Shown one piece after another: positions 3,296 to 27,901 of a stretch of 32,298 nt of DNA. Position 1 is the first letter of the stretch, and every line of letters starts with the position of its first letter. The notes under the pieces are model-generated. The model worked only from the letters and a program-made list of their open reading frames with translations, did not search any database and was not told the DNA's origin. The DNA is from a bacterium (GTDB lineage: Bacteria; Patescibacteriota; Minisyncoccia; JAUYLV01), in NCBI GenBank assembly GCA_030699565.1, contig JAUYLV010000035.1, forward strand, positions 1 to 32,298, read 5' to 3'. A program made the position numbers and the translations under genes.

Positions 3296-4339
3296 GTGAA
3301 TCCCGTAATAAAAATTCTCATTCTTTCCACCATCTCATTCGCTGTTGCGATCGTTTTGACGCCGTTTTGGGTCAGGTTTCTTCAGCGGCATAAGCTCGGA
3401 AAGCAGATCCGGACGGAGGGCGCGCCGATCTTTGCGATGCTGCACGGCAAAAAGGCCGGCACTCCGACGATGGGCGGCGTTCTGGTGTGGATGAGCGTAT
3501 TGATCGTGCTGGGCATATTCACTTTCATCGCCGCCTACAATCCCGGCTCCAAGTTCGCCGAATTGAATTTTCTTTCCCGAGGGCAAACATTACTGCCGCT
3601 GGGCGCAATGATCATCAGCGCGATCATCGGCCTTGGCGACGATCTATTGGGTATCTTTCATATCGGACCCAAGGGCGGAGGATTCCGCCTCCGGCACAGG
3701 ATTTTATTGTATCTGTTCGTGGCCATGGGCGGCGCGTGGTGGTTCTGGGACAAACTTGAATGGGATACGCTGGCAGTTCCCTTTATGGGAACATTCAATA
3801 TCGGCATCTGGTACGTGCCATTGTTTATTCTTATTATTTTCGCGACGGCATTTTCGGTGAACGAAACGGACGGGCTGGATGGGTTGGCGGGCGGCGTTTT
3901 GCTTATCGCCTTTGCCGCCTTAGGCGCCATCGCCTATGCGCAAGATCGCTTCCAGCTTGCGGCATTCTGCGGCGTCATCATGGGGGCGCTCTTGGCGTTC
4001 TTATGGTTCAACATTTACCCCGCCAAGTTCTTTATGGGGGACACGGGATCCATGGGACTGGGGGTAACGCTTGGCGTTATCGCGATGCTGACCAATTCGG
4101 GACTCTTATTGCCTTTCATCGCGTTCATACCCATGCTCGAATCCCTTTCGGTGCTGCTGCAGATCGCATCAAAGCGCATTCGAGGAAAAAAACTGTTCCT
4201 TTCCACGCCGCTCCATCACCATTTCGAGGCCAGAGGTTGGCCGGAAACACAGGTTACCATGCGATTTTGGATCGTCGGCGGCGTTGCGGCAGGATTGGGA
4301 TTGATTTTATCCCTTTTGGGGACGAGGTACATTTTTTGA
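3296..4339 (+). CDS. mraY: Phospho-N-acetylmuramoyl-pentapeptide-transferase
   Basis: KKAGTPTMGGVLVW, NETDGLDGLAGG, FMGDTGSMGLG and TPLHHHFEARGW motifs; GTG start. Confidence 0.96.
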   Translation: MNPVIKILILSTISFAVAIVLTPFWVRFLQRHKLGKQIRTEGAPIFAMLHGKKAGTPTMGGVLVWMSVLIVLGIFTFIAAYNPGSKFAELNFLSRGQTLLPLGAMIISAIIGLGDDLLGIFHIGPKGGGFRLRHRILLYLFVAMGGAWWFWDKLEWDTLAVPFMGTFNIGIWYVPLFILIIFATAFSVNETDGLDGLAGGVLLIAFAALGAIAYAQDRFQLAAFCGVIMGALLAFLWFNIYPAKFFMGDTGSMGLGVTLGVIAMLTNSGLLLPFIAFIPMLESLSVLLQIASKRIRGKKLFLSTPLHHHFEARGWPETQVTMRFWIVGGVAAGLGLILSLLGTRYIF

Positions 4340-4361
4340 TCGTCTGAAGGTTTACGTTTGC

Positions 4362-4503
4362 TATGCTGAAAATTTATAAGGATACGAAGTGCTGTTTGCG
4401 GATAAGCAAAAATGCGCCGAGCTGCTGTTTGCCTTCGTACGTGCTTTTAAAATTCTCCCAAAATATCGCGCATGATGCGTGTTTTAAAAAGCATCTTGCG
4501 AAC
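4362..4503 (+). ncRNA. Candidate small transcript or very short ORF (unclassified)
   Basis: Extended -10-like TGCTATGCT near 4360-4367, inverted TACGAAG/CTTCGTA around a duplicated GCTGTTTGC, then the cggccgaggccg hairpin. Also contains AAGGA-tacgaa-GTG opening a 28-codon ORF (MLFADKQKCAELLFAFVRAFKILPKYRA). Weak evidence. Confidence 0.2.
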
Positions 4504-4504
4504 T

Positions 4505-4524
4505 AAAAAACGGCCGAGGCCGTT
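4505..4524 (-). terminator. Rho-independent terminator (strongest for the minus strand)
   Basis: Minus strand AACGGCC-TC-GGCCGTT followed by TTTT, just downstream of the 4548-4712 ORF. Confidence 0.75.
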
Positions 4525-4547
4525 ATTTCTTTTTCACGTGATAGCGC

Positions 4548-4712
4548 TTATACTATGGAGAGAAGCAAAATTGCCCCAATGATGAACGAAAAGATCCAGC
4601 GATCCCAAAGACGGTTTGCGATCGCAAGACACTGGTCACAATAGCATCCGAAGAAGCCGTCATAAAGATCGCCTCGGTTGTTGCCGCAAAAATTGCACTG
4701 CGTTGTGTGCAT
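4548..4712 (-). CDS. 54 aa Zn-ribbon-like N-terminus plus C-terminal TM helix (hypothetical)
   Basis: MHTTQCNFCGNNRGDLYDGFFGCYCDQCLAIANRLWDRWIFSFIIGAILLLSIV; CxxC plus CxCxxC, GAGG about 9 nt upstream and a terminator right after. Different frame from the 62 aa track ORF at 4553-4741; missed by the 60 aa cutoff. Confidence 0.65.
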   Translation of the reverse strand: MHTTQCNFCGNNRGDLYDGFFGCYCDQCLAIANRLWDRWIFSFIIGAILLLSIV

Positions 4713-4766
4713 ATGGTAACCTCACATTTTTTAAATAACATCGAAAGCGTAACAAAATAGTTGCAT

Positions 4767-6143
4767 ATGTCAATTCATTCATTGCATGTAAAGCGGGATT
4801 TTTCCTTATTTTGCAATAAGCGCATAACCGTCATGGGACTGGGGCTTCACGGCGGGGGAGAGGGAACGGCAAGATTTCTGGCCAAGGCGGGCGCAAATGT
4901 CACGGTTACGGATCTGAAGACCCGCGCGGAGTTGGCGCCCTCCATAAATAAACTCAAAGGCATGCCGATCCGTTATGTCTTGGGGCGGCATGTTGTGAAG
5001 GATTTCACGAATGCCGATATGGTCGTCTACAATCCCGGTATACGCGCGAAATTCATGCGGCTTGAAGATTCTCCGTACCTTGCCGCGGCATTGAAAAAGG
5101 GAGTGCCGCTCGAGACGGATATCGGCATATTTTTCGACCTGGCAAATCGGGGACAGATTGTCGGTGTGACTGGTTCAAAGGGAAAATCGACCACGGCGGC
5201 GCTGATTGCGCACCTATTGAAGCAGAAATATCCGGATACGTTATTGGCCGGGAATATTCGAACGTCTGTTTTTGATGTTTTGCCCCGTATAACTTCTAAG
5301 ACTCCTATTGTTCTGGAATTATCCAATTGGCAATTGGAGGGGCTTGCAAAAAAGAACATAAGTCCGCATATAGCGGTCATTACCAATATATTGCACGAAC
5401 ATCTCAATACCTATAGAAACTTTCACGGATATATAGAGGCAAAAAAACATATTCTTCGCTTTCAAAAACCTGATGACATTGCGGTACTGAATAAAAGTTT
5501 GGCGCAATGGGAAGAATTTAAGGAACCGTGCGGCAAAGCCAGGCGCGTATGGTTCGCGAAAAGAGAGCCTTTGGATCATAAAGATGAGTTGAAACTTCCC
5601 GGAGCGCATAATCGCGAAAACCTCGTTGCCGCGCTTGCGGTCGCCCGATTATACCGTATTCCGGCTTTCCGGATCCGCAAGGCGCTTGCGACCTTTGAGG
5701 GTCTTGAGGGTCGTCTGCAAACCGTCCGAACGGACCGTGGCATTACCTGCATCAACGACACGACCGCAACCATGCCGGATGCCGTCATCGCCGCTTTGCG
5801 GAGCATGCCAAGACCGCAAAATACCATACTCATTGTCGGTGGTGTCGATAAAAAATTCGATTTTAACCCCATGGCGCGTTTTATTGCCGCCTACCCGCCA
5901 AAGGCGCTAGTGATGTTACCGGGATCCGCCACCGAAAAATTAATAAATGCGCTTCGTAAGGCGCATTGCCCCTCTCCCATTATTGAGGCATCCTCCATGC
6001 GTCAAGCTGTATATTCTGCGTGGAAGGCCGCGCAGAAAGGAGATACAATATTGTTATCGCCGGGTGCGGCGAGTTTTAACCTCTTCAAAAACGAGTTCGA
6101 TAGAGGCGAACAGTTCGTAAAAGCAGTTAATAAAATCAGGTAA
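4767..6143 (+). CDS. murD: UDP-N-acetylmuramoylalanine--D-glutamate ligase
   Basis: GLGLHGGGEGTARFLAKAGANVTVTDLK, VGVTGSKGKSTTAALIAHLLK, LELSNWQLEGL, GAHNRENLVAALA, INDTTATMPDAVIAAL. Confidence 0.93.
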   Translation: MSIHSLHVKRDFSLFCNKRITVMGLGLHGGGEGTARFLAKAGANVTVTDLKTRAELAPSINKLKGMPIRYVLGRHVVKDFTNADMVVYNPGIRAKFMRLEDSPYLAAALKKGVPLETDIGIFFDLANRGQIVGVTGSKGKSTTAALIAHLLKQKYPDTLLAGNIRTSVFDVLPRITSKTPIVLELSNWQLEGLAKKNISPHIAVITNILHEHLNTYRNFHGYIEAKKHILRFQKPDDIAVLNKSLAQWEEFKEPCGKARRVWFAKREPLDHKDELKLPGAHNRENLVAALAVARLYRIPAFRIRKALATFEGLEGRLQTVRTDRGITCINDTTATMPDAVIAALRSMPRPQNTILIVGGVDKKFDFNPMARFIAAYPPKALVMLPGSATEKLINALRKAHCPSPIIEASSMRQAVYSAWKAAQKGDTILLSPGAASFNLFKNEFDRGEQFVKAVNKIR

Positions 6144-6148
6144 TTTCT

Positions 6149-6175
6149 AATTGACCTAATTGACCTAATTGACCT
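6149..6175. repeat. Tandem repeat (AATTGACCT)x3 (block C, murD/ftsW)
   Basis: Three perfect 9-mers directly after the murD stop. Confidence 0.95.
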
Positions 6176-6235
6176 AAATAAATTCCAAACCTGGCGATTT
6201 GCGATATAGAATTCATTGGTAATTGGAAATTATTT

Positions 6236-24568: not shown

Positions 24569-25255
24569 TCAGAAGGCGATGTCGGCCCAAACGGGTTTGT
24601 GATCGGAACCGCTTACGTCTTCAAGTACGCCGCTTGCGTGAATGCGGCAATTTTTTGCCGCGATCCAATCAAGGTTTCTGCCGAATCCCAGATGTTTCCA
24701 CGAATACGGCAATCCCTCCGCTACGGAAAACCCATTGCCATTGAGCGTCTCGGTTACACCATGTATTTCGCGTTTACTATAAGTATTGAAATCACCCATC
24801 AGGATCTGCGGCTGCGCGATCGGTCGCGCCTCCAAAGACTCAAAGATCCGCTCAAGCTGCTTTGCGCGCGTCTTCTTCGTTGCAAGCGATTCGAGGTGCG
24901 TATGCGTCAATCCGGCGCAGCCGTGTGAAGTGGCAACCTCCACATAGTGCGCAATGCGCGGGCGCAGTCGCGATCGCGCCGGTGGCAGCACGATGTGTTC
25001 GGTGACAGCGAGTGGAAGTTTAGTAAGAATTGCCATGCCGATACTCCGCCCCAGAATGGTCGCGCGCGGCACAAAATGATGGTCGTATCCGAGCGCATAG
25101 GCAAGTGCCTGAGTAAACCTCCGCTTCTTGCTCTGCCAGACCTCCTGCAATGCAACAATATCCGGTTCCAGGTCGCCAAAGGCCGAAAGAGCGGTCTTTA
25201 AGAGCCGCTCGGAGCGAAGCGCGTAGAAAATATTGAATGTAACGACGCGAAGCAT
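24569..25255 (-). CDS. Endonuclease/exonuclease/phosphatase family protein
   Basis: MLRVVTFNIFYALR, PDIVALQEVW, ILMGDFNTYSKRE, DWIAAKNC...SDHKPVWADIAF. Confidence 0.85.
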   Translation of the reverse strand: MLRVVTFNIFYALRSERLLKTALSAFGDLEPDIVALQEVWQSKKRRFTQALAYALGYDHHFVPRATILGRSIGMAILTKLPLAVTEHIVLPPARSRLRPRIAHYVEVATSHGCAGLTHTHLESLATKKTRAKQLERIFESLEARPIAQPQILMGDFNTYSKREIHGVTETLNGNGFSVAEGLPYSWKHLGFGRNLDWIAAKNCRIHASGVLEDVSGSDHKPVWADIAF

Positions 25256-25289: not shown

Positions 25290-25372
25290 TAATTCACGGT
25301 GCTGGTGTATTGAAATATGACGCATCATCACTTAAACTGCACAATACGCTGTTTGAAAATAAAGGAGGTTCT

Positions 25373-26332
25373 ATGGCGAATCGTCCACCCGGCATAACCA
25401 TCGATCGATTTCAGCAACTCTTGCGTGAAATATGCGACCAAGAAACGTCGCAGGATCCGGAACATTGGAAGCCCGAAAACCCCTTATGGGGACATTGCGC
25501 CGTCGCCTCCCTGGTAGCCCAGAATCTTTTCGGAGGCGACATTTTTCGCGCCTCGATGCAGCGGCGCGGAAAAGTCTTCGGATCGCATTATTGGAACCGC
25601 CTCCAGGACGGCAAAGATTATGATTTCACCAGGGATCAATTCGGCGGTACGCTTCCGACACTTTTGGATCCCGCCTTGCGCGACCGCGCAAGTATTCTGT
25701 ATCCAAAGCCGGATGACCCGGATGAACGCAAACAATTGTTCGTCGGGACAAGGAATCGTTACAAGCTTTTGGCATGGCGGCTTTTGCAGAAACTTTACGG
25801 CATCAATGCCGCCGGCAGGCAGAATCCGCTTTTTTCCGATACGCGGTATCGGGCATGCTTCGAGGTGGCGATGGATTCACCATGCCAGAAGATGAAATTC
25901 GGCTGCGTCATAACCCGCGAAGGCTCCATACTATATGCCGGCAGCAACAATACCATCGAGCCCTTGCGATCACTCTGTGATCCGACCTGCATTCGCTTGT
26001 CGATCCAATCCCGAACCGATTCCATGATCGGTGCATGCGGCCACGGCGAGGAGTTGGCGCTTTGGGAGGTTGCCCGCAAAGGCATCCGCCTGGATGAATG
26101 CGAACTCTACGTCGCCGGCTTTCATCCTACCAGCCTTCCGTGGCTGAAAACGGATGGCGAACACACATGCCTGCGCTGCAGCGTGCAAATGTTCAACGCG
26201 CGCCTTCGCACGATATACGTTCCGCTCCAAGCGCCGGACACGTTCAATACCGCCGTATGGCATCCGCTATCTGCCGAAGAAGCTCTTCGAGGTGCGGTGG
26301 CCTATGCATTGAAGGAAAAGACTATTAAGTGA
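25373..26332 (+). CDS. YunG-like N-terminal domain fused to a cytidine/deoxycytidylate-deaminase-fold C-terminal domain
   Basis: N-term: HWKPENPLWGHCAVASLVAQNLFGGDIFRASM...GSHYWNRLQDGKDYDFTRDQF...GTRNRYKLLAWRL (YunG-like). C-term: CGHGEELALWEVARKGIRLDECELYVAGF...HTCLRCSVQMFNARLRTIYV (HxE and CxxC zinc motifs). AAAGGAGG 6 nt upstream of ATG 25373. Confidence 0.75.
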   Translation: MANRPPGITIDRFQQLLREICDQETSQDPEHWKPENPLWGHCAVASLVAQNLFGGDIFRASMQRRGKVFGSHYWNRLQDGKDYDFTRDQFGGTLPTLLDPALRDRASILYPKPDDPDERKQLFVGTRNRYKLLAWRLLQKLYGINAAGRQNPLFSDTRYRACFEVAMDSPCQKMKFGCVITREGSILYAGSNNTIEPLRSLCDPTCIRLSIQSRTDSMIGACGHGEELALWEVARKGIRLDECELYVAGFHPTSLPWLKTDGEHTCLRCSVQMFNARLRTIYVPLQAPDTFNTAVWHPLSAEEALRGAVAYALKEKTIK

Positions 26333-26338
26333 TGTACT

Positions 26339-26361
26339 GACCCGTTTAAATCGGGTCTTTT
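26339..26361 (+). terminator. Rho-independent terminator
   Basis: GACCCG-TTTAAAT-CGGGTC-TTTT. Confidence 0.75.
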
Positions 26362-26395: not shown

Positions 26396-27901
26396 ATGCC
26401 AAGTAATAAGGACACAACAAAAAAACATCCGCCCGTCATTGCCGTTATGGGGCATGTTGACCATGGCAAAACGAGCCTTTTGGATTACATCCGCAAATCG
26501 AATGTAGCCGAAAAAGAGTCCGGAGGCATCACCCAGCATATCGGTGCCTATCAAATTACCCATGCCGACCGCGTCATGACGTTTTTAGATACGCCGGGAC
26601 ACGAAGCGTTCTCCGAGATGCGCAGGCGAGGGGCGCATGTCGCGGACCTTGCGGTCATCGTCATCGCAGCGGACGAAGGAGTAAAACCGCAGACGTTGGA
26701 GGCGCTGAAACACGCCCAGGAAGCCAAGATTCCGTTTGTGATCGCGTTCAACAAAATCGACAAGCCCAATGCGGACACCAACCGGGTGAAAAAAGATCTT
26801 TCCGAAAAGGAAATTCTTACGGAAGACTGGGGCGGAAGCATTCCTTCGGTCGAGGTTTCGGCAAAATCGGGACAGGGCGTTCCGGAATTGCTTGATATGC
26901 TGCTTCTGATGTGGGATATCGAGGATCTGGAGGCCGCGGAAGCGGGGAGCGGCATGGAAGGCGTGGTCATCGAATCCCGGCTTGACGCGCGCAGGGGGCC
27001 GACGGCGACCGTGCTTGTAACCATCGGCACCTTGAAGACGGGAGACATTATTGCGTGCGGCAAGACCATCGGCAAGATCCGGATACTGGAAAATTTTAAA
27101 GGTGAAGAAATAAGCGAAGCGACCGTTGCAACGCCCGTTCGTATCATCGGGTTGGAAGAAGTTCCGGTGTTGGGCGACACATGCCGCACGGTTGCCGGCA
27201 TTGAAGAGGGGCAGGCGCTTGTCGATGTCGCGCGAAAAACCGAGGAGGCGGATCGCACCAAGGCCGCTGCCGTCATCGGCGGAACGACCTATGTACTTCC
27301 ATTGATCCTTAAGTCGGACGTGAAAGGATCGGAAGAAGCCATTCGTGACGCGCTCGCCAAGATCGTCACCGCGGAGGCCGGCATTCGGATCATCGAAAGC
27401 GGCGTGGGAGACATCACCGAGGCCGATATCAAATCGGCGGTCGCCACCAAGGCGAAGATCATCGGGTTTCGAGCCGGCATATCGCATGATATCGAGCAAT
27501 TCGCCCGCCAGAAGGAAATCCCCGTGGCGCGCTACGATCTTATATATGACTGCCTGGAGGGCATTCGAAAGGAGCTCGCATCGCTTCTGCCCGCGGAGAT
27601 CATTAAAAAGCCCTATGGCAAGGCAAAGGTATTGGCGGTATTCAAGCGTGAAAAAGACGGTATTATCGTAGGTGGACGCGTCACGCAGGGCAAGCTGGTT
27701 CGCGGCGTCTGGTGCGATTTGATGCGCGATGGAGAGTTGATTGCGGAAGGAAGGCTTCGGGAGCTTAAGATCATCAAGGATAGCGCAGCGGAAGTAAAAG
27801 AAGGCCAAGAATGCGGCATGCTCTACGTGGGCAAAGGGGAGCCGAAGATCGGGGATACGCTGGAATCATACGAGCGTGAAGAGCGGCGAAGGGAACTTTA
27901 A
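26396..27901 (+). CDS. infB: Translation initiation factor IF-2 (short, core-only form)
   Basis: PPVIAVMGHVDHGKTSLLDYIRKSNVAEKESGGITQHIGAYQI, FLDTPGHEAFSEMRRRGAHVADLAVIVIAADEGVKPQT; 501 aa starting just before the G domain. Confidence 0.97.
   Translation: MPSNKDTTKKHPPVIAVMGHVDHGKTSLLDYIRKSNVAEKESGGITQHIGAYQITHADRVMTFLDTPGHEAFSEMRRRGAHVADLAVIVIAADEGVKPQTLEALKHAQEAKIPFVIAFNKIDKPNADTNRVKKDLSEKEILTEDWGGSIPSVEVSAKSGQGVPELLDMLLLMWDIEDLEAAEAGSGMEGVVIESRLDARRGPTATVLVTIGTLKTGDIIACGKTIGKIRILENFKGEEISEATVATPVRIIGLEEVPVLGDTCRTVAGIEEGQALVDVARKTEEADRTKAAAVIGGTTYVLPLILKSDVKGSEEAIRDALAKIVTAEAGIRIIESGVGDITEADIKSAVATKAKIIGFRAGISHDIEQFARQKEIPVARYDLIYDCLEGIRKELASLLPAEIIKKPYGKAKVLAVFKREKDGIIVGGRVTQGKLVRGVWCDLMRDGELIAEGRLRELKIIKDSAAEVKEGQECGMLYVGKGEPKIGDTLESYEREERRREL

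Follow-up and report, generated by a model that had tools for sequence, protein, structure and literature searches.

The window, the whole stretch of 32,298 nucleotides that was analyzed, comes from the genome of a small uncultured bacterium of the Patescibacteria (CPR) (1.23 Mb in 92 contigs, completeness 99.8%). It carries a gene, present in single copy in this genome, for a protein in which a YunG domain is followed by a deaminase domain (Table 1). The gene ends with a TGA at 26330-26332, and the boundaries previously assigned to it were exact. An alternative start at a GTG (25277) would give a longer product, without Shine-Dalgarno-type support. Upstream lies a divergent endonuclease/phosphatase-like ORF (24569-25255, minus strand), and downstream infB starts at 26396. 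The hairpin proper of the terminator-like element between the fusion gene and infB spans 26339-26357 and is followed by TTTT, which suggests that the fusion gene is a transcription unit of its own. The same genome encodes a cytidine deaminase (L124), a dCTP-deaminase-like protein and a thymidylate synthase. A search of this genome for another dCMP-deaminase-type gene yielded none that passed PF00383.

Table 1. Features of the YunG-deaminase fusion gene and its flanks (window coordinates)
Feature	Position	Strand	Basis
Shine-Dalgarno-like AAGGAGG	25362..25368	+	read in sequence; 4 nt 5' of ATG 25373
YunG-deaminase fusion gene, 319 aa	25373..26332	+	ORF, Pfam matches, homologues
YunG domain, residues 10-141	25400..25795	+	PF24585, E 7e-25
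Cys42, predicted YunG nucleophile	25496..25498	+	Cys in 41/43 YunG domains
His72 of YunG	25586..25588	+	43/43 YunG domains
Asp84 of YunG	25622..25624	+	43/43 YunG domains
CDA-fold deaminase domain, residues 160-283	25850..26221	+	PF00383, E 1.1e-8
Cys202, Cys206, Cys222, 5' of HxE, possible second metal site	25976..26038	+	conservation
HxE (H224-G225-E226), zinc ligand and proton shuttle	26042..26050	+	sequence, alignments
C266-L-R-C269, zinc ligands, TCxxC not PCxxC	26168..26179	+	sequence, alignments
Intrinsic-terminator-like hairpin and T run, between fusion gene and infB	26339..26361	+	z -3.8

An earlier note on this DNA had proposed a fusion of a YunG-like with a deaminase-fold domain, and the fusion proved to be real. 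Both Pfam domains scored over their cut-offs, with 87.9 bits against 27 for PF24585 (YunG; positions 2-115 of the 116 in the profile covered) and 35.3 bits against 25 for PF00383 (dCMP_cyt_deam_1). A search for homologues returned relatives of full two-domain length at 52-60% identity. The nearest of these, the fusion in G001, is 60% identical to the window protein; over 311 codons the two genes differ at 97, 69 and 196 first, second and third codon positions, the pattern expected of a protein under purifying selection. Because of the Pfam E-values, the full-length homologues and the codon-position pattern, a chance match of the two domains can be dismissed.

The YunG signature, previously described as including a conserved Cys and His, was found in WKPENPLWGHCAVASLVAQNLFGGDIF (residues 32-58) and GSHYWNRLQDGKDYDFTRDQF (residues 70-90). 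Besides these two residues it holds Asp84 and Gln89, and the window protein has all of the invariant C, H, D and QF motifs of the family (C42, H72, D84 and Q89). A third motif, GTRNRYKLLAWRL, is the tail of YunG and is less conserved. Conservation was compared across 43 YunG domains from the window's class, other Patescibacteria, plasmids and one phage, among which Asn75 is kept in 42 and Gln89 in 41. Both exceptions to Cys42 come from a single genome, G685, and one of them carries an in-frame stop. From residue conservation, YunG is likely a Cys-His-Asp hydrolase or transferase. Searches of the literature gave nothing of use on the family.

Structure models were made of the two halves, from alignments of four sequences, and both were weak. 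In the YunG model (pLDDT 66, pTM 0.69) a helix begins with Cys42 and the hairpin strand that follows bears His72, a predicted arrangement as in papain/transglutaminase-type enzymes. The papain/transglutaminase-like Cys/His site suggested earlier gained support as a conserved Cys-His-Asp set, joined by Asn and Gln. Neither sequence nor fold comparison gave a significant PDB or viral match to such a fold, and the YunG profile retrieved only noise from the PDB sequences. Cys-His-Asp sets of such spacing are typical of papain/transglutaminase-type enzymes, which act on proteins, and papain-like proteins are among the weak, non-significant fold matches. On these grounds the YunG half could be a protein-modifying or auto-processing Cys protease or transglutaminase, which would regulate or target the deaminase or, in phages, host proteins. 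We consider this rather unlikely, because across many phyla YunG is mostly a protein of 115-135 residues on its own, for which no conserved partner protein was seen, and because its recurrent fusion partners, CDA and UDG, are base enzymes.

In the C-terminal half, the HxE within GHGEELAL and the CxxC within HTCLRC were present as described, in the order typical of the zinc motifs of the CDA-fold superfamily. The usual Pro before the first Cys of the CxxC is replaced by Thr or Ser in the relatives. Upstream of the CxxC, the subfamily shows the signature C-x3-CIR-x2-I-x-SRT-x2-M-x-G-x-C-x-HAEE. Its extra cysteines occupy the place of the Cys-rich stretch of dCMP deaminases; C206 and C222 are invariant in the five fusions of alignment A1 and C202 is retained in most of the active ones, and together the three may bind a second metal. 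When a profile of nine deaminase domains was compared with the PDB, four dCMP deaminases ranked first, in the order cyanophage S-TIM5, Streptococcus mutans, T4 and 2w4l. The best Foldseek matches of the deaminase model (pLDDT 51) were TadA, dCMP and cytidine deaminases (probability 0.8-0.9, E about 0.3). The score with the ComEB model TIGR02571 was 19.4 bits, far under the NCBIfam cut-off of 219; because of this distance and the TCxxC, the protein is not an ordinary dCMP deaminase. We infer from the sequence that this half is active on a cytosine-type nucleotide.

Six other intact fusions were found, in G001, L002, L003/G276, G337, G121 and G215. The one in L002 stems from a Melainabacteria MAG, possibly through a binning error or transfer, and the one in L003/G276 from Candidatus Yanofskybacteria, a genome of the same class as that of the window; in both L003/G276 and G337 the fusion has a cytidine deaminase gene in its vicinity. 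On a Lloydbacteria contig (L004) the fusion is interrupted by a transposase gene. There, YunG and the front of the deaminase (3981-4571) are separated from the remainder (5921-6205) by an insert (4571-5921) with IS110-like transposase ORFs on the minus strand (4771-5289 and 5222-5818). The gene for infB adjoins the fusion in G000 and G001, and G035 has only a 40-residue YunG remnant, located upstream of infB as in the window (L009 1480-1620).

Three further fusions of one family (G042, G065 and probably G129) have a degenerate deaminase half. Their HAE is changed to HAP, by which the catalytic Glu is lost while the zinc ligands are retained, and this half should therefore be inactive. The HAP genes of G042 and G065 sit between an M50 peptidase gene and rpsL; in G129 an M50 peptidase gene adjoins, and the YunG half is partly masked by a run of N. 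In G065 this spot further holds an active stand-alone deaminase of the same subfamily as well as a cytidine deaminase, and G053 has a split deaminase-YunG pair there. The M50-peptidase spot of G087 holds three consecutive genes for different deaminases, without YunG (L095 1187-2926).

The deaminase subfamily was defined by a score of at least 75 bits in 387 genomes of the class, where the next score was 56. All 12 members either are fused or adjacent to YunG or lie in the corresponding deaminase cluster at M50 peptidase/rpsL. A Fisher value for co-occurrence of the subfamily with YunG is partly circular, the profile having been built from fused proteins, and was not relied on. In a tree of the YunG domains the five core fusions formed one group (85/81), from which G121/G215 and the HAP pair each stood apart; deep support was weak, and two changes are enough to account for the active fusions. 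As judged from the sequences, a single fusion followed by losses or splits is possible.

Deaminases and YunG are also combined in other ways. The pair in G053 consists of separate genes in reversed order, deaminase then YunG, 15 nt apart, and its deaminase belongs to the fusion subfamily (195.6 bits). In the huge phage LR756501 (L032 2674-6375), a 1233-aa protein comprises, in this order, deaminase (PF00383, 6e-9), YunG-like, PolyA_pol and HD domains; the YunG-like domain matched the YunG profile with an hhalign E of 1.8e-7, and its C, H, D and QF line up with those of the profile. A Streptomyces sp. KN37 plasmid carries an annotated nucleoside deaminase gene divergent from YunG, with 180 bp between them. 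Another, independent partner belongs to the UDG superfamily and has a VGExPAxNGWxKSG motif; it is fused to YunG in G638 (7.7e-12) and encoded next to YunG in G587 (L038 937-1851 and L079 6389-6949 for the G638/G587 set); the two UDG parts match each other at 4e-23. In G136 the gene order is deoxynucleoside kinase, YunG and a dCTP-deaminase-like gene. The view that the fusion ties YunG to nucleotide or base chemistry, put forward from the window alone, was strengthened by the split and reversed arrangements and by the YunG-UDG fusion.

A neighbor test, with genes three to five places from YunG in the same loci as control, gave no significant enrichment for NUDIX (4 of 86 near compared with 2 of 107 far) or CDA genes (3 of 86 compared with 2 of 107). 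This result would fit a fortuitous fusion, in which two unrelated enzymes were joined by chance. We regard such an event as very improbable, since the fusion is kept across a class, a reversed pair and a phage fusion exist, and active-site residues are conserved in both halves.

HAD hydrolase genes adjoin YunG or lie two genes off in three genomes (L070, L072 and L074), and in two cases they abut or overlap it. Stand-alone YunG genes on plasmids (Bacillus, Streptomyces, Rhizobium and others) had no constant partner. Stand-alone YunG is frequently plasmid-borne and adjacent to acetyltransferase genes, as might be expected if the fusion protein served to detoxify antibiotic or xenobiotic nucleosides, with YunG opening an amide. 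Blasticidin S deaminase, a resistance enzyme, shares the CDA fold. A role of this kind is nevertheless quite improbable for the window protein, because related genes keep a conserved chromosomal position, at infB (G000, G001 and the remnant in G035) or at the M50 peptidase/rpsL spot (G042, G053 and G065), unlike a drifting resistance gene.

Phage members extend the YunG family under the Pfam cut-off. They include gp296 of phiCbK (YunG E 1.7e-4), whose gene neighbors that for DNA polymerase I, relatives in cyanophages and a large protein of Myxococcus phage Mx1 (L052 3980-8336) with YunG-like, GNAT and ART-PolyVal domains (E 0.0035), the gene of which follows shortly after those for thymidylate synthase and a dNMP kinase. 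The L032 protein has repeated DPYGEEDW motifs, and adjacent ORFs begin with MIxKFKLFE-like sequences, perhaps a packaging or cleavage signal. The occurrence of phage YunG-like domains in big proteins with GNAT and ART-PolyVal domains, of the polyvalent type (PMC5512222), counts in favor of a protein-modifying YunG. Polyvalent proteins are phage proteins that are injected into hosts; YunG and papain-like domains go unnamed in the text of that study, which brings up the deaminase fold only where the RadC/JAB domain is compared with it (PMC5512222).

Phage carriage of YunG-deaminase proteins could also point to an attack on nucleic acids. The deaminase would then act on DNA or RNA, as a mutator, in editing or as an anti-phage effector, and the UDG partners would take the resulting uracil. 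The ties of YunG to both deaminases and UDG-superfamily proteins agree with this, as does a weak match of the window protein to the MafB19 deaminase profile (E 0.011). We nonetheless judge it unlikely. PADLOC gave no match of the window protein to a known anti-phage defense protein, no secretion, immunity or delivery context was seen, and the solved enzymes closest to the deaminase family, those for dCMP, act on free nucleotides. In addition, no locus was seen to combine YunG with both a CDA and a UDG. A toxin was likewise given a low rank, for want of a delivery or immunity context and of a toxin-family match over cut-off.

The reading that we prefer is a bifunctional enzyme that handles cytosine/uracil (deoxy)nucleotides and whose two halves would act on a shared metabolite. 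The C-terminal half would be a zinc-dependent dCMP/TadA-type deaminase, with the zinc held by H224, C266 and C269 and protons shuttled by E226, and would convert a cytosine-type amino group to a keto group by hydrolysis. The Cys42-His72-Asp84 hydrolase or transferase of the YunG half would work on this metabolite too or else on what the deaminase makes of it, and fusion or gene pairing would hold the two steps together. Free cytosine (deoxy)nucleotides, or modified or damaged versions of them, are the most likely substrate class, since dCMP deaminases are the closest solved relatives and a cytidine deaminase, a dCTP deaminase, a deoxynucleoside kinase or a UDG-superfamily protein stands by YunG in related loci. 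Against this reading count the weak neighbor test, the plasmid-borne YunG genes with their changing surroundings, the distance of the deaminase from ComEB and the low quality of the structure models. We give the shared nucleotide handling an even chance and not a higher one. A wider proposal is offered only tentatively: YunG might be the common module of a new pyrimidine-base pathway in Patescibacteria, many plasmid-bearing bacteria and huge phages, a Cys-His-Asp enzyme that would work with a cytosine deaminase or uracil-glycosylase-like partner on some altered (modified or damaged) cytosine/uracil nucleotide.

Deaminase fusions are of an already known kind, and the value of this one lies in making the function of YunG testable. 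The family occurs in B. subtilis, Streptomyces, Patescibacteria and phages, and the deaminase and UDG links provide a first testable hypothesis for it. The analysis singles out C42, H72 and D84 in one half and E226, C266 and C269 in the other, and the HAP relatives, with a deaminase half that is expected to be dead, are a natural control.

Among known systems, the nearest solved relatives of the window's deaminase family are the dCMP deaminases/ComEB (PF00383; PDB 4p9c, 2hvw, 1vq2 and 2w4l), with which it has the HxE, the CxxC and a Cys-rich stretch before the HxE in common. The window protein differs from them in its TCxxC instead of PCxxC, in the SRTxxMxGxCxHAEE signature and in the attached YunG. 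With the YunG family (PF24585; Bacillus subtilis YunG) it shares a match over the whole profile and the C, H, D and Q residues, whereas YunG elsewhere stands alone and is here fused to a deaminase. The UDG superfamily, family 4-like (PF03167), is the other fusion or pairing partner of YunG, in G638 and G587; this UDG-type protein scored under the UDG_fam4 cut-off, too distant to name a substrate, and is absent from the window protein. Finally, the large multidomain phage proteins in which the YunG-like domains of L032 and Mx1 lie resemble the polyvalent proteins (Iyer et al. 2017, PMC5512222), whereas the protein of the window is cellular and has two domains.
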